Part shown: positions 33,338-49,060 of the stretch, one piece after another
Position numbering within the stretch: the stretch's first letter is position 1
Layout of the letters: the number at the start of each line of letters is the position of its first letter
Source of the DNA: Thraustochytrium sp. TN22
Taxonomy: Eukaryota; Sar; Bigyra; Thraustochytrida; Thraustochytriidae
Assembly (NCBI GenBank): GCA_013306675.1
Contig: JABLUY010000013.1
Coordinates: 1-49,451, forward strand
Reading direction: 5' to 3'
DNA: 49,451 nucleotides
The notes under the pieces: generated by a model
Database searches by the model: none
Told to the model about the DNA's origin: nothing
Seen by the model: the letters and a program-made list of their open reading frames with translations, nothing else
Made by a program: the position numbers and the translations under genes

Positions 33338-36300
33338 TCACCAGCAGGCAGACCAGCCGCGGTAAAGCTGCGCCAGGTTTTCCTTGTTGGTGGCCTGGTC
33401 AATGAGCTTGAGGACCTGCTTCTCCACGCTGAGCGGGGTCGCCGTCGGCGCGTTGTCAAAGTCCGTGCCCTGGAGTTTGTCGCGCACGCGGTCAATGATC
33501 TGCACAGCGCGCTGGTTGAGCAGGTCCCGTGCTCCGCTCGACCCGTCCGCGCCGCCAGGCCTGGGCGGCGGCCGGGGAAGCGCCTCGGACTCGGCCCCGG
33601 CGTCCACGGCGTCGCCGCTGGCGGCGACCGACGTCGTGGGCTCAACCTGAGCCTCTGGACGCAGGATGCGCCAAGAGACGAGCGGGTCATACACAAAGGC
33701 CTCGAGCATCGTCAGGATGGACTCGCGGTTGTCGCGCAACACGTGCATGACGGCGTTGCAGGTGACCCGAAAGGTGCCCTCGAGACCGGAGACTTCCATC
33801 GCCTTGACGAGCATGCGCGTGAGACGAAAGGGCACGGTCTCTGGGAAGTTGTCGCGGTGCATGGCAACCTCGAAGCAATCGCCAAAATCAATGTGCAGGA
33901 TGCGGCCCGAGCTGCGCTCGAGCATGAGGTTGGACGGGTGGCGGTCGCCGAGGCCGAGAATGTACCCGACCATGGACATGGCGGCCAACGAGCGAGTGTA
34001 GTTGTTGCGACGACCGACCCAAACCTCGGTGCTGGGGCTCTTGAGCCACAGCACGCGTGCCAGGTCCTGGCCCGAAGTGCTCTCCATGACGTGCTCGAAG
34101 ACCTCCACCTTTTGAATCCAGCTCAGGTTGTCGAAGTTCGCCTGTGCGAACTCGTTGATGAGGTTCTGCTCGCACTGCACCGGGATGCCACGCGCCTCGC
34201 GGTACTCCTCAATGAGGCGGTGCAGCGTGTCGGTCTGCGGGACCCACTCGACGATACCGGAGCCGGACGACAGCGGCACAACGGCGTAGCGCTGGATCTC
34301 TAGCGCCAGCTTGCTCGTGTCGCCGTCCAGGTGAAGCAGGCCATTCACCAGCCCAAAGAGCTGCATCACGCGCTCATCCATGCGCAGGTCCTCATTGCCC
34401 TTGAGAAGGAACATGTTGGACGAGCCGTCGGAGCCAGCCATCGTGATAACGCGCGGGCGCTGCTTGGACGTGATGATGCGCACCGATGGCTCAAAGTGGG
34501 CAATGCGGACCACCGCCGACCCAGCCTGATACGTTCCCGGCACGGCCAGGTGCAGGTCGCGCGCAAGCAGCAGCACGGGCGAGACGTTGCGCAGCTCGAT
34601 GCGCTTGTTCAGCAGCTGCTGCTTGATCTGGCGGAAGACGCCATAATACAGGTTCCAGGCCTGATCCAGGAATGTCTTGTTGGAGCAGCCGGAGCTGGTG
34701 AACTGGAAGAGCCACTCCTGGGCCTCCTGCAGGTCCAGGCCATACGCCTGCATGAAGGCGACCTCATGCAGCGTGCGCGCGCCATCCTCCATCTCTAGGT
34801 GCAGCGAGATGAGGATGTTGATCATCTCGTCTACGTCGGGGTTCTCCGTGAAATAGGCGCGCGAGGCGTCCTCGAGCTTGTTGTACCACTTCTCGTGCCA
34901 AAGCACGGCGATGCGAATCAGCTCTCGCGACACGTCCCAAGCCTCCTCGGCCAGTTCCGGGTACTGGTCGCGCAGGCCACGCATCACGAAGATGGCGGCC
35001 TCGGCCCGCGCAGGGTTGTCCGACTTGGACGCGACCGTCAAAGGGTAGATGAGCACCTGCGGGTGCAGCTCGCCGATGCGCAGCAAAAGCTCACACATGA
35101 GGTCGCCAGGTGTCTGCAGGCGCGCGATCAGCTGCGGGATGACGCCCAGCCACACCTCGACGTCCAGAAGGTTGAAGCCCTCGCGCATGACGCGGCCCAC
35201 CTCGGCGCTCTCGAAGTTGCTAAACCACAGTGTCAGCAGTCGCAAGATATCCTGCAGCACGTCCACGCCCTTGCGACGGCCCAGCGTGATGGAGCGAAAG
35301 AAGCCGCGCATGGCGGGCTCCACAAACTGGTTTCGCGCCGCGGCTTGGGGCAGGCCCTCGGCCGCACCCCCGGTCGCACCCACGCCCCGGTGCGGTGATA
35401 CGGCCGCGGAGAAGTTGGCCAGCGCCCACGCCTGCCATGCCTTCTGGTTGCCCACGTCGTATTCGGTCGCGGCACGGTAGCACTCGAGCACCTGCGCGAA
35501 GATGCGCGGGTGCGAGTGCACAAGGTCAAGCGGCCGTCGAAGAAGCACGCTCTCCTGTGCGTTGCCGCGCTCGCGCTGGTGGATTCCGGCACTGATCGAC
35601 GTTCGCCGGTTCCGGCCCCTCCCGGAACCGCGGCGGCCGCCCTGCCTGCGAGCGTCCCGCGCAGCCTCCTGCGCCATCTCCCGGTTCCGCTCGTCCTGCT
35701 CCAGCTTGAGCTGGGTACGCTTCTTCTCCTCCTCCACTGCATCGACGAGCCAGGACCCGAGCTTGTTGCAGCACTGCACCAACAGCTTCCGGAGCGCCTG
35801 CTTGCGCTGGACGTTGATATCGAGCGCCTGCAGGTCGGCCAAGAAGTGCTCCTCCAGGTCCTCCTCCGACTCGTCCAGAGCGGGGCCTCCGCTCGCGGCC
35901 CTCTGCAGCTCCCGCGCCGCTGCGGCCGCCGCTGCGGCCTCCTGATCGCTCGCCGCCATCTCCGCACGCAGCTGGCCCACGTCGAGCGTCGAGCCGTCCA
36001 TGGGCAGCGGCCGCGAACTCACCCCATTGAAGTCGTCGAAGAAATCGCCGCCCTCGCCATCCCAATCCTCCTGCTCGCTGTCGGTCCGCGGCGATACGCT
36101 CAGGCGCGTTGGCAGCGGCGAGGACACCTGACGCACGTGCTGCGGGTCGCGTGTGCGCAACTGCGGCCGAGAGCCGCCGCCGCCGCCGCCGCCGCCGCTG
36201 CCGCCACCGCCACCGCCGCCACCACTGCCGCCGCCGGAAAATGACGAGGATGTGTCCGCACCGACAAGCGGGTGCTCCGACTCCAGACAGCGTGCCAGCA

Positions 36301-39300
36301 CGAGGCGCAGGCGACGAAGGCGGTGGACGGCCTCGGCGTGGTGCCCGGCCGCCCAAATGTGCTTAATGTACGCAAAGGCGACCCGAGGCTTCACCTTGAA
36401 GCGCCGAGAACGCATGTGGGCGCGCCCGCGCTCACTGGGCGCTACCATGTGGAACGCGAAGTCCTCCTCGCTGAAGAAGCGCGACGTGAAGAGCGCAGCG
36501 GGCTCGGTAGGTTCCTTTTCCTCGCCCGAGTGCATTCCCTCGCCCTCTGCGTCGCCGTCCGCGTTCGCCTTCTTTGGCGGAATATGCAGCGCCGTGATGC
36601 TTGACGCCGACGTGATGCGGCCCCGTGAGGCGAGCTGCGAGTCGGACCCGATGCCCAGACGCATAAGCGCTTGCAGTGAGAGCGCCAGAAGCTTCTCCTT
36701 GCGCGCAATCTTGGCAAAGTGCAGCCACGTTTCGGCGTCGTCGACTGGGTCCACAATGAGGCTGCGGTACGCCAGAATGAGCATGTATGAGGATGCCGAA
36801 TTCTGCAAGCCTTGGAGCCGGGCGGACCACACGCGCCGCAGACGGTTCAAGTAGAGCTTTGCCTCCTCAGTGTTCTCCTGGCGCTGCAGCTTCTTGTAGT
36901 CTAGAATCTCCTGCAGCTCCACCATGTGCTGCACGCGGACCAGGTGCGGATACGCGCGGCCATAGCTCTCCTTCACCAGTGACGGCAGCGAGCGATCCAG
37001 GAGCGTGTACGCTTTGTCAATATATACCTGCGCTTGGCCCAGCTGGTCCTCGTGCAGCGCCAACATCACTTTGAGCATGCAGCCGTCCGTGCGGTTCGTA
37101 TCCACGTACGGCGCAAAACGCGACATGTTTTCCCACTTGCCCAGCGCGTACGATGCCAGCCCGCCAATGGTTGCCATCTTCTGCGCGTACCAGCGAAGAT
37201 CCTGCGTGTCGCACACAGCCGGAGGCGTTGGCATCAGCTTTTGCGCCGCGTCCTGCGTACGGCCCTCGTCCAGGCTCCCGGCGTCGCTCTCGGCGTGCAT
37301 GTCGCGTTGCGTCTGTGTGGCCGCCACCGTGCTGAAGGCGCCCATGCCCTTGTAGTAGTCGCGAATGTCACGCGACAGGGGATCCTGCGGGTCCGCTGAC
37401 GTGGTGGCATCGGCCGCCACGCGCGCGCGCACCGCGCCCAGGAAAGCGGCATCGGGGGCCTGCGCGGAGATACCGCCACCGCGATCCGCCGACAATGCTG
37501 CATCGCCTGGCCCAGTCTGCACGCTCATGGAGGAGAACATGCGGTCCGCAGGCCACTCGCCGCCGCCGCCACCGCCGCCCATACCTAGGCTCACAGCGCT
37601 CCCAGTACTGCGGTGCCCGGGCCCGAAAAGGAAGGGCAGCTCCTGGTGGCTCTGCGCGCCGTTCGTGCCGTTGGTCGCCCCGCCGCCTCGCCCAGCCTGG
37701 CCATGTCCGCCGTGCACAAAGTCCTCCTCCGTCAACGAGCGAATCGTGCCGAGCCGGCTTTCGGGCAGGTCGTCGTCCGTATTGTACGAGACCACGGAGG
37801 CGGATGCCTGCGACCGGTTGCGCATGAGCACACCGATGGGCTGGCCGAGCGCCGATGCCCCGCCCGGACCCTCGTCCAGCGAGCGCCGTCGACTCGTCGG
37901 AATGTCGGACCCAGTCAGCGTGGGCTCCATGATGGTGAGGTGGTCGGACGATCCGCGGAACTTGGACACGAAGTGCGACGGCTGGGAGGCCGCGTTGCTC
38001 ACGCCGGATGACGTCGATCCGCCCACCGCCGCGACGCCGAGACTTGGTGCCGATCCGGTCTTGCCGCTTGTATGCGGCAGCTCCCTCGACGGGGTCTGCA
38101 AGCCTTGCTGTTGTTGCTGTTGCTGCTGGTCGCCCCGCGGACTCTCCGCGTGCTGTGAGAGCGCGTCGAGCTCGAGGCCGTCCTCACCGCCAAGGTGGCG
38201 ATCAAGCTGGCGCAGCTCCTCCCACTGGACCTCGAGCGAGGCGAGGACCGTGTTCCACCCGCCGACACTGTTGAGACAGCGCAAGTAGCCCACGTTGAGG
38301 AAGGCTTGCTCGCGCAGGATGATGCCCGCGCCAGCGTACTCGCGCGAGAGGACGTCCTGCTGATTCTTGTACTCGCTAAGCGCCTGATCCCATTGCTCAA
38401 GGCGCTCGAACCAGGACGGCTTGACCGCCAAGGTGTCGCGAAGGTGCTTTCGTGCGTAAAAAACCACACCCTCGGCGGCGTCCCTCATCTCCAGGTGTTT
38501 GTTGATGTTGATGAGCTTCTCGATACACTCCTCCGGGGGCAGCGCACGGAACTCGATCTCTGCGAAGCGGAGCGCCTTGGCATTCGCCTGGCAGCGAAGT
38601 GCCACTTTGCTGAGGAGCCGCACATCGATGGGCAGCGGCTTCTCGTCATGCTCCATGAAGTCAACGAGCGCCAGAAAGGTCTGGAGGATGTCGCGCGGAA
38701 TCTTGGGCGACACCATGGCGGACTCCAACTGCTGCAGGAGGTGGTCCCTGGCCGGGGTTTCGAGCTCGTTCCAGCACGACAAGAACGCCGCGTTGAAGAG
38801 CTCCTGAGCCACCGGCTCGTACGCCTCGGCCAGCGGGCTGCACACAAAGAGCGCTTGGATGGGCGACTGCTTGAGCAGGGCCAGCGTGAAGCGTCGCATG
38901 TAGTCGCGCCACTCCGCCTCGGTGCTGATCTGGCCTGTGTGCCAGGCGGGCCTGAGCTGCCTCAGGTCCATGTTGTGCGTGCGGACCAAGGATTGCGTCC
39001 GCGTCTGGCGTGTGGCGACCAGCTTCGCCGGCGCCTTGAGGTAGACGGTCTCCACCTCTCCCTGCGGGTCGCGGCACCAGTCAGGTGGGCGCTCCAGCAC
39101 CTGACCGCGCAGCACGCGCTGCGTCAGTTCCATGTACGCGTTGATGGCGCGGTCCTCCACGGTGCCCTGGAGCTCCCCTGGGGGCACGACTGCGGGCGCG
39201 GTAGGCAGCAGATCCGAGGCGACAATTTCGCCCAGCGCGCGCTCCACAAGCGCAACGTAGACGGCAAAGTCGTCTTCCAGTCGATACACGAGCGAGGTGA

Positions 39301-42300
39301 GCGCGTCCATGACTTTCACGAAGAGCATGCGCTCGCTCGCGTAGCGTGAACCGTGCAACGAGCCGCCGACGCCGCCGATGCCGCTGCCAACGCCGCTGCC
39401 AACGCCGCCACTTCCGCTGGTGACCGCTGAGTTATGCGTGCTTCCGGCGGCCTGCGACTTGTCACCAGCCCCAGTCCTGCCGGCCCCGGAAACAGGGCCG
39501 ACGGGCGCCGTAGGGGGCAAACTCGCGGTGTCCGCGTCGCCTGCCTGGGTCATTTTGCGCGCCCGACAGTCGTCCAGGGCGTGCACGAGCGGGTGCACGA
39601 TGAGCGTGCCGTACTCGCCCACGTTACACGAGCGAATGACCGCCTTGAGCGTGTCTACGGCCAGCATGCGCACGTTGATGGGCACGAGGGTGCTGTCAAC
39701 GAGCGCGGCAAGGGTGGGCACCACCAGGTACAGGTGCTCATCGAGAGCCGGGCCGAGATGTGAGAGGACGTGCAGCACATGAACCGAATCATCGAACTTC
39801 TGCGCGTCACGCTCAGCATGCAGGAGCGACAGCATGTCGTCGAGCAGGGTCGCCATGTGCGGGCGCAGGGCCTCCGGCGAGAGCTTGGCGATGAGCGTCT
39901 CCGTGAGCATCACGATGGAGTCCTTGTAGTTGCCGCCCCAGATCTCGTGCTGGAGCTCGAAGATGGCCGCCACGTACGGTGAGATGGCCTCTCCGGCCTT
40001 GGAGACGAGCCTGGCAAACTCCTCCAGCTTTCGAGGCAGCGTGGGCCGGCCGAGCGCCGCGGCGCGCTGCAACACATGGATGAGGCGCGGCATCACGAGC
40101 GGCAGGAAGAGCGCATAGTTGAAATCGAGCGCCTCGAAGACGTGGTTGACCGCGACAAATGCGTTGTAGAGATGCTCCTCGTGCTCGAGCCGCGGGCCGC
40201 CCAGCACCTTGGTGAGTGCCATGATGGCCACACGAGGGTAGTACTCGGCAGTAGATGCCACCGACGAGGGGAGCAAAGTCTTGGCTGATGCTTGGTTGAG
40301 CGTCTCCAGGTCCAACTGGTCGTCCGCGAGCTGGTCCTGCACCAGCTTATTGGCGGCGGCCGCCGCGAACGCAGAGGCGCCAGTGAAGACGTCGAAGCGA
40401 TCATGGCGCAGGTCATCATGTTGCATCATGGCGCCAGACGTTACGCTCGTGCCGGGTGCCACGGCGCCGCCTGCCTTGGACGTTTGGACAGCGCTAGCAC
40501 CCGCGGCAGATGCCGGCGCCAGAGCACCGAGGCCCTGCTTGGTGGGCGTGGCCAGCTTGGCCGCGGTATTCGCCGCGGACATGGCAAAGTTGTGCTCGCC
40601 CGGCTTGCTGGCCATGGTGCCAACCGCCTCGGGGCCCGATGCGCGCGTGGGCGCGTGCACGGCGTACAGCGTGCTGCGGCGGCGCGTCTTGTGCTTTGTC
40701 GTGTGGGACATGACGTTGATTTGCTGCGCCACAAGCCGGATCGAGGACTTGCGGCGCGTGCGCGGCCTGCGCGGGTCGCGCGTCGCGGCCCGTCTCGCTT
40801 GGCTGTTGATTTCCAGGGTCGCCTGGAAGGTGGAGCTCGCTGTGGCGGCGCGACGGTGCGGCTGGCCCAGCAGCGCGCCGTTCTGCGCCGCCTCGGCGCC
40901 CGTGCCGGCGTCCACAGACAGGCCGTTGGATGCCTGGCTCGCCAGCAAGGATGTGATGCGCCCCATCGCCATGCTGTTGTTTGCGCTGCCCGGGTTGTTG
41001 AGCACGCGCCCCCCACCCGCCGTGGACAGGGGTGGCATTGAGATTGTCGACGGGTCCGCGAGGGGCCCCGTGAAGGAGAAGCTCTGGTTGAGCGCCGTGC
41101 CGTTCGGAGGCGAAGGCAGTGGCGGCGGCGGTGGCGATGGCGGCGGCGGCGGCGGCGGGAGGTGCCGACTGACAGTCGATGCCTGCTGCGAGGCGGCCGG
41201 AAGGTTGAGGGGCGGCATGCCAGCAGCGAACGGGAGCCCCCTGAGCGATGGCGACGCGGCCCCGGTTTGTCGTTGCGCCGCGCCGACCGCTCCGGTCTGC
41301 CCGGGATGGCTTGCGGAGTACAGGTCGGCCTTGACGAGGTAGGAGGTGCGGCGGGAGCGGCCGGCCCAGAGCGAGTGTCTGGCGGGCGTCAAGGTGGGGC
41401 TCATGAGACCAGTAGGGCCAAGTCCCTGGGCAACGTGCGCAGTGCCAGCGCCAGCGCCAGCGCCAGCACCAGCGCCGGCGCCGGCGCCCCTTCTTTCGAG
41501 ACTGCTGCTACTGCCTGTGTTGCTGGCCGCCTCGGTGGGCCCCACGCCGCGATTCCCTGAGGTGTTGATGGTGCTCGGGGTGGCAGCGGCAGTAGTGCTG
41601 GTGGTCGCAGCGGCCGCCATGGCAGTACCGGGCATGTAGGCGCCGGCGCCGAGCGAGTCGTTCCCGCCTGTACCCCCCGACATTTGATGCGAGTGGAGTG
41701 GGGGCGCCTCGAGGTCAAAACTACTGAGGCCCTCGACGAAGCTGTCCTCAAAGTAGACCTCGTACTCGCCACCTTGGCTGGCATCGTCGCCCTCGTCTTC
41801 GTCCGCGTCAATCTTGCGCGCGGAGAAGGCCTGCGCGACGGCGGAAGGCAGGTCGCGCGTGCCGCCAAATGCGAGCAGCAGCTTGGGCAGCTCCGCAGCC
41901 CGCTCCCCGTCCGCCGCAGTTCCGTCCTTGTCGAGCTCCTGGTGGTTGCTATGAAGAAAGGGATCGAGAGCGCCGAGGATGCCGTAGGTGATCATGGCCT
42001 GCTTACGCAGCTTGAAGGGAGCTCCCGGCATGACCATGATCTTGAGGATGCTGTCGAGCAGCTGCGGGAAGCAAAAGTACGGCCAGACAGGCAAAGCGGC
42101 GTGGCTGGCCATGATGGCGAGCGTAGAGAGCGCGACCTCGCGCTTGAGAAAGGTGCTGGAGGAACCGTCCTCGAGGATGTCGACGATAATGGGGAGCACG
42201 CGTGCCAGCAGCGGTGACAGCGTGGCCTCGTCACCGACGTGGGCCACCTCGCCGAGCGTGGCGAGCATGGCGGTGGCGACGTTGCGATGGACGCTGCGAA

Positions 42301-45300
42301 TCTTGGGGAGGAGCATGTTGATGACGTTGGAGATGTGCGGTCGCGCGAGTGCAGGCGTGAGCGAGCGGATGAGCAAGCCCAGCAGCACAACAGAGTCCTC
42401 GCGCTGCTTGGGTTCGACGGAAAAGTTGAGCTCGTTCAGGTGGCGCAGCAGGACGGCGTGCACCGTAGGCATGATGCTGGACGGCGCAAGCGAGGCGAAG
42501 CTACCGAGCGCGTCCACGGCGACGGCGCGTACCTCGAAGTGGCGGTCGTTTGCCAGCACCACGTAGGAGCGGACGAACTCCGGGTTTCGCAGGAGCAGCG
42601 GCGCGAAGCGGTACGCCATGTCGAGCACGACGTACTGGCGAAGCGCAATGTCCTCGTCGGTCATGGCCACGATCAGAAGACGCGCCAGGACATGTTGAAC
42701 GGCGTGCATATCGACGCGCGCGCCGTTGGGCGTGGCGTCCGTGTCGGCAACCTCGGACTGGTCGTCGACTGTGAATTCGCCGTTCGCCTCGGCCTGCGGC
42801 ACGGACCCGCTCCGCGCTGCAGGCTGGGCGGCTGCCCCGCCGCTGGACCTTGGGCTCGGCGCTGCCGCGGCGCCGGTGCTGCCCGCAGTCTGCGTGGGCG
42901 TAAGGGGAAGTGCCTGCGAGGTCTGGCGAAAGCTCGAGCTCGGGCTCAGGAGCGCCTCGCCATCCGGGGAATCGAGACCGACAAAGGCGAGGTCCGAGAG
43001 GCGTTTGCGGCCGGGTTCGACGTCGGACTCTTGCGACGACTTCTTGCTGAGCCCACGCACCAGTGAGGTGCCTGCGAAGTAGGCCTCGTTGGTGCCGAGG
43101 AGCGAGCGCGAGAGGATGTAGCCGCTAGCTCTGCAAGCCTCGAGGCGCACGCGCGGGTCTGCAGCGTCGAAATGGCGCACGACCAGCGAGACGAGGACCG
43201 GAAGGAGGTCGATGCCTTCGAAGCGGAAGGTGGAGAGCGCGCGCAGCGCGAGGATCTGATCCTGCACGCCCGGATCGGTGTCGTCGTACTGCTCCTTCTC
43301 GTTGCCCCTGGACTTGAGCGCTGAGGCGTTTGTGGCGGTGCCCATGTTGGACCAGAAGTTGGCGGCCCGCCACTTGAGGTCCTTCCACACGTCGCGCACG
43401 TTGGACCCATTGTCGGAGTTCTTGGAATTGGAGTCGGCGCGCACTGAGCGGCGCGCTGAGCTGTCCAGCAGAGTGGCCGTGTCGAGCGTGTCCAGGTCCT
43501 GGAAGCCGACGGGCACGAGCTTGAGCAGGTTGCGCACCTGCTTCTCTTGCACATGCTGCTGGAAGGCGCGATTGCGCTTGCCGCCGTGCACGGCGGACAC
43601 CGCAAGAATGTTGGTGGCGGCCTGCAGCAGGCGCGCCTCCAGGACGATGGCGTCACCCGGGAGTGTCGCGGTGAGGACGGACACGGTGGCCACGAGAGAC
43701 TCGTTGAGGCGATCGTTGAAGAGGCAAGGAATGAGTGCCTGCAGTGGGCCGGGCGTGTTGAGCACGCTGACCACCTCGTGCGCTTGCAGGAGCAGGCGCA
43801 GGCAGTAGAGCGCCTCGGTACAAAATGGCCACTTCTCGGTGGGCGTGAGCGCGTCACGGATCAGGTCGAGAATCTCGAGGAGTCGCGCCTCAAAGGCCGG
43901 GGCGGCCTTGTTGAGTGTGCTCATCTGGCCCAGTGCTCGAAAGGCCGCGGCCCGGCTGGTAATCTTGGCCGCGTCGCTGTCCTGCTGCGCCTGCGCGCCC
44001 TGCGCGCCCTGCGGCGAAGCGACGCTGAAGCGGGCAGCCTGGCTCGTGCTGGAGCGCACCGAGTTCGCCGGCGACGGGGCGGCACTCGTCTGTTGATGCT
44101 GCGGCGACGCGAAGCCGTGCGGCGACTGGGCCGCCCCAAAGGACATGCCCTGGCTCGGCCCGCTCGCGCTGGAGGCGCAGACCAGGAGGTACTCCATGCT
44201 GTGGCTCATGAAGACGTCGAAGCTGTGCGGGTTCGGCGCATGCAGCGCGAGGCGCGGCAGGGTCATCATGACGGCCTCGCGCACGAGCGGATCGCCATGG
44301 AAGCGCACTTCAGGCAGCCAGAGGCAGGCGTCGAAAATCTCGTCGAAGCGAAAGCGCGTGAACTCGCCTGTGCACTCGCCAACCAGTTCGTAGATGGTCA
44401 GCAGAGCGCCGTGCAGCGTACTGACGTTTCGGAGTGACGCGGATCCCGCCGCTGCGGAGTGCGCCGCGGCAGTCTCGAGCATCGAGACGCCCGCGTCCTG
44501 CGCGTCCTGCGCGCTGCCACTGCCGCTGATGAAGCTAAAGAGGCCCTGCGCCCTGTGCTGACCCGAGCGCTTGAACTTCGAAAAGCGCCGCGCGCGCGGC
44601 GACGCGAAGCCTCGGGGCGCCGAGGCGCCCCCCGCCCCGGACCCCGAGAGACTCGAGCCACTGCCGTAGCTGTCGAGAGTCGCCGGGAACACCTTGCGCG
44701 CTGTCGAGTAGAGGTCATTGTACAGCCTGTTTTTCTGGGCTTCCTGGCGCTGCCCAATGACGCGAAGCGCGTATCGTAGCGAGATCGCCGCTGTAAAGCG
44801 GATGCGGTCGTTGCGATCGCAAATGGCGTCGAAGATGCCGGGAAAGTACTCATCGCTCTTGTGATTGAAGAAGGTCGGCACGTTGAGCGCGAACTCCTTC
44901 AGCAGGAGCACTGCGGCAAGCCGCTTGACCTCGGACGCGCCCTTCTTCTCCTTGAGCCATTCGATGGAACGAACGATCTCGCGCTCCACGAAATGCGAGG
45001 CCACCGCGGGCTGGCCCGTCGCGAGTTTGCCCAGCTCGCGACAGGCTGACTCCAGCGCCACCAGGCCCGGGCTCGAGCCGGAGCTAGGAAGCCGCCCGGT
45101 CGACTCCTGATGCACAATGCGGATGAGCAGATTTACCAGGTAGATTTGGACGCTGCTCTTTTTCACCTCGGGGTGCGTCATCTGCACGATCTCGTGGATT
45201 AGAATGGCGCACGCCAGGCTGTCCACCGAGCTAGAGCTCTTCTTCCACCGGTCCATATGGTCAATCACCGCGCGCAACACGCGCGCGAAGCTTTCCTGCG

Positions 45301-45719
45301 ACCGGCTTCGGCTCTCCTGCTCCAGGTACCGCCGCACCCGCTTGGCGGCCGCCGCGCGGTCATCTCTGTTCTTGGTGCGCAGTCCCTGCGTCGCGTCGCG
45401 TTGCGTTGCGTTGCGTCGAGCCAAGCAAGCCTCGCCGTCAGTTAAATGCTCACCGCTCACGCCCTTATTCGGTCTCCCATTGCGCTCCGCGCCGCGCGGC
45501 CGCCTGCTCGACCCGCCGCCGCGCTGCGCCGCGAGCCGCGAGCCGCGAGCCGCGAGCCGTGAGCCGCGAGCCGAGCCATCCAAGCCATCCATCCATCCGT
45601 CCGTCCACCTAGCGCCGTGCCTGCTGCGCGCGCGTGCGGGCACCGCCACTCACATCCAGCGTCTTGCGCAGCGTGTCCTGGCCGCGGTCGCCGCCCTGCG
45701 ACAGCCGCCAGTAGTTCAT
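33338..45719 (-). CDS. TOR: Target of rapamycin (TOR) kinase, unusually long, one intron
   Basis: Spliced product of about 4,037 aa against ~2,500 in most eukaryotes. Exon 1 (45719-45654, 22 codons, MNYWRLSQGGDRG) joins exon 2 (45385-33338) across a 268-bp phase-0 intron (GTGAGT to CGCAG). HEAT repeats fill the first ~2,180 residues. FAT runs ~2,200-3,500 (FNAAFLSCWNEL, FMEHDEKPLPI, SYGRAYPHL, GFFRSITLGR, PQLIARLQTP). FRB is near 3,515 (NKLEDASRAYF, DQAWNLYYGVF), and the PI3K-like kinase starts near 3,660 (ITSKQRPRVITMAGSDG). The catalytic loop is GLGDRHPSN and the metal loop HIDFGD. FATC ends YRGWSACW, where most TORs have a Phe before the last Trp. Extra length comes from low-complexity inserts (poly-Gly near 3,080, Gly-Ala near 1,325, Gln near 2,450). 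TOR couples nutrients to growth; the FRB supports rapamycin-FKBP12 binding. Confidence 0.96.
45386..45653 (-). other. TOR intron with CAACG and GAGCCGC repeats
   Basis: The intron contains (CAACG)n at about 45392-45418 and (GAGCCGC)n at about 45526-45567 (read on the + strand as CGTTG and CGCGAGC). Splice ends are GTGAGT and CGACGCAG. Confidence 0.85.
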
Positions 45720-46255: not shown

Positions 46256-49060
46256 ATGACGGTATGTATGCCTCGCAGAAGATGGCTTTCGCATCGCCAA
46301 CACGGCGATCTGGGACGTCGAGCCGCAGTCGCGCGAGCCAGCCAAACCGTCGCGGCCAGCGGGCCGCCGGCAGGCTGCCGCGCAGAACTCCAAGCCGAGC
46401 CGCGGGCCCGGGGTCGAGGCCGAGCCCTCGCGCGGCGCAGGCTCGACGACGACGGCCACGGCGGCCACGGCGGCCACGGCGCCGGCGGCCACGGCGCGCT
46501 CGTAGGGCGGCGGCGACACCAACGTAGACACGCGGGGGCCCGGCGCCGACCCGCGCGGCAAGTCGCAGCCTCGTTCGAGCCCGAGTCGGCCGCCCGCGCG
46601 CTGGCAAACTCGATCGCCACGGGCGCTGCGCGGCGAGCGTCGCCCGGAGCCCGCCGCGGCGTCGTCGAGGCGCGCAGCGAGGCCTCGCGGCGTCCCGGGG
46701 GCGGCGGCGTCTCCGGGCGGCCGTCGGGGCCGTGCCGTGGACCCCCGGAACGCCGGCCAGAGCGCGACAAAGAAGACCCGGACCGCCGACGCCGCCTCGG
46801 AGCTCTCGGGTCCAGCGAAGAGCTTCGCTACACCACTCCTGGCGAGCGCGTTGAAGACATGCTGGTCCACGGGCACAGGCCCAACGTGGCGCGACGCGCG
46901 GAAGAGGCCTGGCTGGAGCGGGAGGGCGGCCGCGAACTCGTGCAGGCGCTGCGGTCCTGCAGGCTGTTCTTCACGGAGGAGGGCTCAGAGGAGGGCAAGC
47001 GCAAGCTGGTGGTGCTGCCTCTGTGGTCGCAGGAGACGCTCGTCATTAGCGGCGTGCAGCGGCTGCCGCCGCTCATCGTGCGATGCGGGCTCAACGTCCA
47101 GGGCGACCTGCAGAGCATGGCGGACGGCCTCCAAGTGGACGGGGACCTGGTGCTGGAGCAGTGCGAGGCACTGACGCATCTGCCAACGGGGCTGACTGTC
47201 TTTGGATCTCTGACCGTGTCGCGGTGCAGGCAGCTGCGCAGCGTCGGCGTGGACCTGTATGTAGAGCAGAACTGCCAGTTCCAGCTATGCCGCGAACTCG
47301 CGGCGCTGCCGTCGAGAATGTATGTTGGGGGCGACCTGCAGCTGAGCATGCTGGACACGCTGGAGGTCCTGCCGGCGCGCCTTGGCGTGGGCGGACGCGT
47401 GGTGATGACCTTTGGCGCGGACCTCGCCATGCTCACGGACGAGGAGGTGCTCACGCGGGCGTCGCCCGACGCCGCGGCTGCCTGCATGCACGCCACTCGC
47501 CCCGTCCCGTCGCACCGGCCTGCAAGGGTCGTAGGTAGCGTGCGCGTCATGGGCTGCGCAGGCGTGCAGGTGGGCGAGGGCACCTGGGTGGGCGGTGCCT
47601 TCTGTGTGGCGGCGCAGGCCGGCCGCCTGGGTCGCCGCGACGACGTGGCGCTGCCCTCGCCGCACCTGCTTCCGATGGATGTCCTCTTTGTCGGCGGCAA
47701 TTTGTATGTAGAGGGTCTGCTGGGCAGCGCGGAGCTGCCCTCGGACCTCGTCGTCAAGGGCAGCGAGGTGGCGCTGTTCTCATGCTGGGGCGTCACCCAC
47801 TTGCCGGTGGGCCTCTTCGAGGCGCGCGCAGGCGCAGATCCCCTTCACATTCTCTTGCGCGGTACCGGTGTCCGAGGCGCGGCGCTGCACGCGGCGCTCG
47901 ACATGCGTGTACCCTTTGTGCATGTGGACGTGGTTGGCGCCGGCTTCGCAGCTGGCGCTGGCGCTGGGGCTGGCGGCGAGAGCGGCGGCACGTGGGGCGA
48001 TTTGCAGCAGCGGCAGCAGCAGGGTGAGGAGGAGGCGGAGGCGGAGATGACGCTGGCGCTGGAGCTGAGCCGTGACTCGGCCGCACGCGAAGTGCGGCGT
48101 GCCGTGGGCGCCTGGGATGCCGCCCTGGCAGAAGCGCTGGAGCTTGACCCCGCGTACCAGCGCGGCGTCGTGCTCTTCTTGGGCAAGCTGCGCTCGTCGC
48201 GCGAGTTTGTCAACGACAAGCTGCGTCCGGGCCTGGAAGCTCGCGTTCGCGAGGTCCTGCAGCTGCTCGTCGCGGCTGACGAAGCGACGCGTGCCGAGCT
48301 CGTCTCGCGCATGTGCGACAGCGTGGATAGCTGCGGCGACAAGCCAATATGGGCGCTCAACCAGATGTGCGCTCTGGCGGCCATCTTGAGCGCCCGCGGC
48401 AAGGAGCAAGCGCTGCGCGAGGTCGGCCGTGGCCTGATGCGACTCGGTATCGTGCATGAGTACGCGCGCAAAAAGGCCGCGATGCTCGGGCCCGGCGTGG
48501 ACGAGGTGTGCGTGTTCCTGCGTTTCGAGGTGGCGCTGCGCGAGCGGCTCTCGCTGCCCGTGTCGGCGCGCGAGATGCTCTACCCGAGCTACGTTGACAT
48601 CAGTACGGCTGATCTGGACGCCGCGGCGCGCGCCGCGGAAGCCGTCTCCGCCGAGGCCTTCGAGCGCTGGCTCGCCGACTGGGACGAATGGCGTCGCATG
48701 CAGCGCGAGCGAAGCGTCCCTCCATACGATGCGCTCCCGACCACGTGCGAAGCACCGTCCGAGCGCGACTCGGCGCTTGTGCTCCCGGTCCTCTGCAACG
48801 GCGTCGAGCTTGAGTTTGAGGAAGTCGCAGCCTACTGGGTCCGCACCGGCCTAGACATGGCCACGAACACCCGCATCGATGCTGATGCTTTGTTTGGCGG
48901 CCTGCGTCGCCCGTCTGCTGCACTCGTCGACCGCCCGGCTGGCGCGGCCGCCCGCCGGCTAGGGACGCAGCAGGCCGTCACGACTCAGCGCAGGCCCTCC
49001 TCCAGTTTGTTCTCCCGTCTGGCGCGCTATCTTCCCTCGCGCACACTCAAGCATGTGTGA
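46256..49060 (+). CDS. Leucine-rich repeat protein with NEL-type E3 ubiquitin ligase-like domain
   Basis: The frame from ATG 46256 gives 934 aa. The first ~200 residues are Arg/Gly-rich and may be leader; the well-supported part starts at ATG 46859. Residues ~265-400 have a ~20-residue leucine-rich pattern (VQGDLQSMADGLQVDGDL, LTHLPTGLTVFGSLTVSRC, LAALPSRMYVGGDLQL) like the LP-type repeats of IpaH/SspH/NopM effectors. Residues ~620-840 resemble the all-helical NEL domain. The catalytic-type CxD is Cys693-Gly-Asp695 in DSCGDKPIWALNQM. Then come RLGIVHEYARKKA, DEVCVFLRFEVALRERL, MLYPSYVDISTADL and a closing WLADWDEWRRM. In bacteria the Cys forms a thioester with ubiquitin and the repeats pick the substrate. 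A eukaryotic host suggests gene transfer. No intron or secretion signal is apparent. Confidence 0.8.
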   Translation: MTVCMPRRRWLSHRQHGDLGRRAAVARASQTVAASGPPAGCRAELQAEPRARGRGRALARRRLDDDGHGGHGGHGAGGHGALVGRRRHQRRHAGARRRPARQVAASFEPESAARALANSIATGAARRASPGARRGVVEARSEASRRPGGGGVSGRPSGPCRGPPERRPERDKEDPDRRRRLGALGSSEELRYTTPGERVEDMLVHGHRPNVARRAEEAWLEREGGRELVQALRSCRLFFTEEGSEEGKRKLVVLPLWSQETLVISGVQRLPPLIVRCGLNVQGDLQSMADGLQVDGDLVLEQCEALTHLPTGLTVFGSLTVSRCRQLRSVGVDLYVEQNCQFQLCRELAALPSRMYVGGDLQLSMLDTLEVLPARLGVGGRVVMTFGADLAMLTDEEVLTRASPDAAAACMHATRPVPSHRPARVVGSVRVMGCAGVQVGEGTWVGGAFCVAAQAGRLGRRDDVALPSPHLLPMDVLFVGGNLYVEGLLGSAELPSDLVVKGSEVALFSCWGVTHLPVGLFEARAGADPLHILLRGTGVRGAALHAALDMRVPFVHVDVVGAGFAAGAGAGAGGESGGTWGDLQQRQQQGEEEAEAEMTLALELSRDSAAREVRRAVGAWDAALAEALELDPAYQRGVVLFLGKLRSSREFVNDKLRPGLEARVREVLQLLVAADEATRAELVSRMCDSVDSCGDKPIWALNQMCALAAILSARGKEQALREVGRGLMRLGIVHEYARKKAAMLGPGVDEVCVFLRFEVALRERLSLPVSAREMLYPSYVDISTADLDAAARAAEAVSAEAFERWLADWDEWRRMQRERSVPPYDALPTTCEAPSERDSALVLPVLCNGVELEFEEVAAYWVRTGLDMATNTRIDADALFGGLRRPSAALVDRPAGAAARRLGTQQAVTTQRRPSSSLFSRLARYLPSRTLKHV

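Follow-up and report, generated by a model that had tools for sequence, protein, structure and literature searches.

A resident gene family with NEL catalytic domains and a U-box-like C-terminal module in a thraustochytrid-like stramenopile

Introduction

NEL enzymes are best known as weapons injected by bacteria into host cells. In IpaH, SspH and SlrP, and in the rhizobial NopM-like proteins, a repeat solenoid precedes the NEL domain, whose catalytic cysteine lies in a CxD motif. An excerpt of one study describes the thumb of bacterial NELs, two long antiparallel helices with the E2-ubiquitin binding site, as a feature of the family (PMC12506513), and a passage of a review states that E2 mutations abolishing RING or HECT activity spare transfer to NELs. 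In eukaryotes, a section of PMC7145615 reports a NEL in a green-alga NLR through a match to a leucine-rich repeat (LRR)-type superfamily, and PF14496 is listed as a query in part of PMC7029713. A NEL domain in a thraustochytrid is already present in databases, since a protein of Hondaea fermentalgiana is named 'NEL domain-containing prote...', a name that looks automatic; in the open-licence literature, among the matches listed, no paper on NEL ligases of thraustochytrids was found.

Here we describe a NEL-type gene near one end of a stretch of DNA from Thraustochytrium sp. TN22. The window, that is, the whole stretch analysed, is 49,451 nucleotides long and corresponds to positions 1-49451 of contig C44, which measures 293,739 bases and belongs to an assembly of 37.9 Mb and 453 contigs. 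The gene belongs to a resident multi-gene family, which we consider probably to be one of cysteine-type E3 ligases with a U-box-like E2-docking module.

Results

The gene is a homologue of NEL, with the NEL fold and a conserved CxD motif. It lies in a forward-strand open reading frame (ORF) at 46256-49060, open throughout, which the first-pass annotation, made from the letters alone, had read as a NEL-type ligase gene. The Pfam search that it proposed supports this assignment, with PF14496 matching ORF residues 637-818 (E 1.3e-27; 97 bits, where the cut-off is 24). Sequence matches in the PDB, namely SspH1, SspH2, SlrP and IpaH-type proteins, agree, and the NCBIfam matches are the SspH2, SlrP and IpaH models, all far under their curated cut-offs. 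When the predicted structure was compared with known structures, it matched the helical catalytic fold of NEL, as had been expected; this subdomain occupies 48080..48718 (+). The catalytic motif is where it had been placed, at Cys693-Gly-Asp695 in ORF numbering (48332..48340, +; the cysteine is Cys492 if the coding sequence begins at 46859). Its C and D are kept in 29/29 protist and 46/46 bacterial rows of the tree described below, and CxD is present in all 25 NEL copies of the organism's own genome. Arg729 is found in 26/29 protist and 46/46 bacterial rows, and Asp749 in 28/29 and 46/46. The protist NEL proteins are putative ubiquitin ligases.

The ORF limits given initially are over-extended at the 5' end. 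The GC content by codon position changes at the ATG at 46859, codon usage correlates with that of the adjoining TOR gene at r 0.958 for 46859-49060 and at 0.591 for the preceding 603 bases (46256-46858), and P0001, a protein from a transcriptome collection (44% identity over 97% of the query), starts with a stretch similar to that of the coding sequence from 46859. For these reasons translation probably begins at this ATG, which gives an LRR-NEL-U-box-like coding sequence of 733 aa at 46859..49060 (+).

A search with the NEL and C-terminus of the window protein returned 25 places in its own genome. The 25 NEL matches, spread over 17 contigs, all exceed the Pfam cut-off and contain no internal stop, and none was obtained in 14 control genomes. 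Some copies are grouped, with four on C335, three on C158 and four on C453. Among the 19 of 25 paralogues taken into a Pfam domain scan, SPRY was found in two (C139 and C20), SAM in one (C288) and Arm repeats in one (C348). The neighbour of the window gene is indeed TOR, at 33338..45649 (-), with the Pfam domains PI3_PI4_kinase, FAT, FRB, mTOR_dom and FATC, and the codon usage common to both genes had also been anticipated. Bacterial contamination or misassembly would fit the run of N that begins at 49452, just past the gene, and the fact that elsewhere NEL is known chiefly from bacteria. However, it has to contend with the 17-contig spread, the TOR neighbour, the TOR-like codon usage and the SPRY, SAM and Arm fusions, on which we reject it; relatives in Hondaea and in the eukaryote transcriptome collection, and a best bacterial match by E-value that is just 26% identical, leave its probability negligible. 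The NEL genes are thus a resident multi-gene family of a thraustochytrid-like stramenopile; for the window gene, the first-pass annotation had proposed residence. A secreted effector of the bacterial type III secretion system is encoded by a bacterium; this gene was found in a eukaryotic genome, next to TOR and with native codon usage. The run of N stands directly after the window, from C44:49452, and the stretch fetched there (L111) contains 8,449 N.

Behind the catalytic subdomain lies a conserved C-terminal module with a U-box-like fold (48713..48919, +), at the place where bacterial NELs have the helical E2-ubiquitin-binding thumb. In the model it consists of strands and short helices and matches the RING/U-box-type domain 2fd4, and the helical thumb was not seen in the model of the window protein, which is therefore classed as a NEL variant. 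Among the 50 rows listed for one fold search, 2fd4 is the only entry confined to the module region, and no further U-box entry occurs among the rows listed in any of the fold searches, where NEL and LRR entries dominate. A profile of 19 of the 25 modules (six near-copies were left out) was aligned by hhalign with a profile of five of seven U-boxes, the two weakest omitted, and gave P 0.00064 and a score of 24.3. The highest score reached among 1,000 column shuffles was 17.6, and that among 61 real decoy windows was 15.9. The Pfam U-box model matched none of the 19 module members at E up to 10, and Pfam and PDB profile searches with the module found no U-box. With all seven U-boxes the score was 18.7 (P 0.0071), and one of 600 shuffles was equally good; this weaker result lowers the odds of a U-box identity a little. 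When 29 module rows were set against the seven U-boxes, the score was 21.4 (P 0.0026), and a forced global alignment was not sensible.

The module could instead be some other small alpha/beta domain, ubiquitin-binding or structural, in a genuine eukaryotic NEL family whose core binds the E2. We regard this as less likely, given that the five-U-box score exceeds the maxima of both the shuffles and the decoys, that 2fd4 alone among the fold-search rows is restricted to this region, and that the module takes the position of the E2-binding thumb. By analogy with U-boxes, the module may be the part that docks the E2.

A query with the C-terminal module of one paralogue found 23 places in the genome, 22 of them behind a NEL and the remaining one at a contig edge. 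In three NEL genes, on C44 (the window gene), C288 and C156, it missed the module; over C53 the match crosses a TGA, which is the end of that gene itself. The module of the window protein is nevertheless recovered, at 16.1 bits, by a profile that excludes the window sequence. In a profile comparison, bacterial NEL ORFs, including the long Pseudomonas ones, gave no significant match to it. The module at the contig edge (G000:C358:8-268) probably belongs to a 26th NEL gene that is truncated.

The window member has LPV where the module consensus has DPV, which might suggest inactive or decaying ligases whose fold is retained for binding only. Conservation of CxD in every copy, the lack of internal stops in all 25 NEL matches and the substitution pattern of the catalytic domain make this very improbable. 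In six of six paralogue pairs the ratio of nonsynonymous to synonymous substitution rates (dN/dS) of NEL is 0.07-0.39, that is, under purifying selection, in a sample of 8 of the 25 genes, two incomplete at the 5' side, in which pairs share members. The N-terminal LRR part of the same pairs, where repeat numbers are unequal, has dN/dS of 0.37 to 1.0, above NEL in five pairs and equal to it in C158_8175/C158_11418; in C335_2179 vs C335_5938 the values are 1.0 for the N-terminal part and 0.15 for NEL.

This N-terminal part is modelled as an LRR-like beta-solenoid (46961..47932, +; model maf0d139bd851, mean pLDDT 75.5) and is presumed to bind the substrate. The model matches the LRRs of SspH2, YopM and SspH1, and beta-helix proteins reach a similar Z. 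A Pfam scan of the window protein gave no LRR match, and LRR matches over the cut-off were obtained in two paralogues.

The relatives of the family were arranged in an unrooted tree of 75 NEL domains, made up of the 25 own copies, P0001-P0004 and 46 bacterial domains. Of the 43 long Pseudomonas rows 27 were omitted, as were bacterial domains scoring less than 45 bits, and P0006 (no NEL match) and P0007 (LRR families listed, without NEL) stand outside it. Protein searches scored the 8,000 candidates with the most shared words, which makes the number of eukaryotic relatives a lower bound; Hondaea is the sole named eukaryote with NEL among the matches listed. The 29 protist rows form one side of a branch with support 100/99, in 200/200 bootstrap trees counted. 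Pairs are formed by P0001 and the window gene (100/99), P0002 and C120 (100/99), P0003 and C265 (100/100), and the Hondaea protein, P0004, and C332 (93/67). Because each pairs with a distinct own paralogue, several NEL duplications are probably older than the split of these organisms. The branch between protists and bacteria is long (1.4), and the tool warned of long branches meeting where protist rows join certain bacterial ones.

Bacteria were sampled in genome_contigs by one peptide pattern, which would miss NELs without it. The scan yielded 140 stretches and 73 relatives, from Bradyrhizobium, Pseudomonas, Serratia, Symbiopectobacterium, Ottowia and Ensifer; in this single-pattern scan no close bacterial donor was found, short segments of identity reaching 39% at most. 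A viral carrier was considered and rejected, as none of 33 pattern matches in one scan of viral_contigs was a relative. Pseudomonas contributed 43 frames of more than 1,000 aa with a NEL of at least 45 bits near the C-terminus (loci among L032-L103), and P0008, which is similar to these long proteins, lists the Pfam domain PF20178 as well. Four Bradyrhizobium loci (L040, L047, L073 and L089) carry two NEL frames each, on opposite strands.

Several other genes of the genome were recorded. A Roc-COR-TIR gene, possibly an immune-type neighbour, lies near the SAM-NEL gene on C288 (L116:2172-4772, -), and an LRR-only gene by Pfam lies near the four-NEL cluster on C453 (L114:6047-9016, +). Two FabA domains occur in one 1,719-aa frame, and FabA domains are likewise paired in the polyunsaturated fatty acid synthases of thraustochytrids. 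This pairing, together with the NEL of the thraustochytrid Hondaea, points to a thraustochytrid-like stramenopile as the host.

Discussion

RBR E3 ligases combine RING-type docking with a catalytic cysteine. The protist proteins may have arrived at a similar logic from unrelated parts, a RING-type docking module feeding the cysteine of NEL. In the mechanism that we propose, the target would be bound by the LRR-like solenoid and, in paralogues, also by the SPRY, SAM or Arm parts; the E2-ubiquitin thioester would be docked by the C-terminal U-box-like module; and the NEL cysteine, ORF residue Cys693, would accept ubiquitin in thioester linkage before handing it on to the target. The target-binding and cysteine-transfer steps follow the biochemistry of bacterial NELs, as far as excerpts of PMC12506513 and PMC4133400 describe it. 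Action inside the protist's own cell would be expected. More tentatively, and as a possibility that we would not yet favour, the LRR-NEL-U-box proteins may constitute a eukaryotic relay class of E3 ligases, the U-box passing ubiquitin to the NEL cysteine, with an expanded, domain-shuffled and fast-evolving recognition repertoire in thraustochytrid-like protists, perhaps serving cell-autonomous defence, and a native eukaryotic counterpart of a "bacterial" fold.

If a NEL with a U-box is confirmed, it should require the ordinary RING/U-box surface of the E2, unlike bacterial NELs. The protist family also offers a eukaryotic branch for tracing the origin of the effector fold, in a group of protists cultivated for omega-3 oils; the gene may go back to a domesticated bacterial effector or to an ancestral protist version, the two origins named in the first-pass annotation. 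The size of the family, its fusions and the U-box-like module in place of the thumb were not found in print, in the open-licence literature and among the matches listed.

The protist proteins share with bacterial NELs the order of solenoid and catalytic domain, the CxD cysteine and the fold, and differ from them in forming a large eukaryotic family, in having a U-box-like module for the thumb and in the fusions of paralogues; the best bacterial locus by E-value is 26% identical. The Pseudomonas proteins of 1,500-1,700 aa have a NEL with CxD in common with them, but form a separate branch and show no significant match to the C-terminal module. That module resembles, in fold and profile, the RING/U-box-type E3 domain of AvrPtoB (2fd4) and eukaryotic U-boxes, from which it differs in being joined to a cysteine-type catalytic domain and in a sequence divergence that puts it beyond the reach of the Pfam U-box model. 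For RBR ligases the likeness lies in the proposed logic; the catalytic domain is different, and we claim no sequence relation. Hondaea FCC1311_016312 (P0004) likewise has NEL and the same C-terminal module, is nearest to C332 in the own genome and, with 505 aa, is a paralogue distinct from the window gene.
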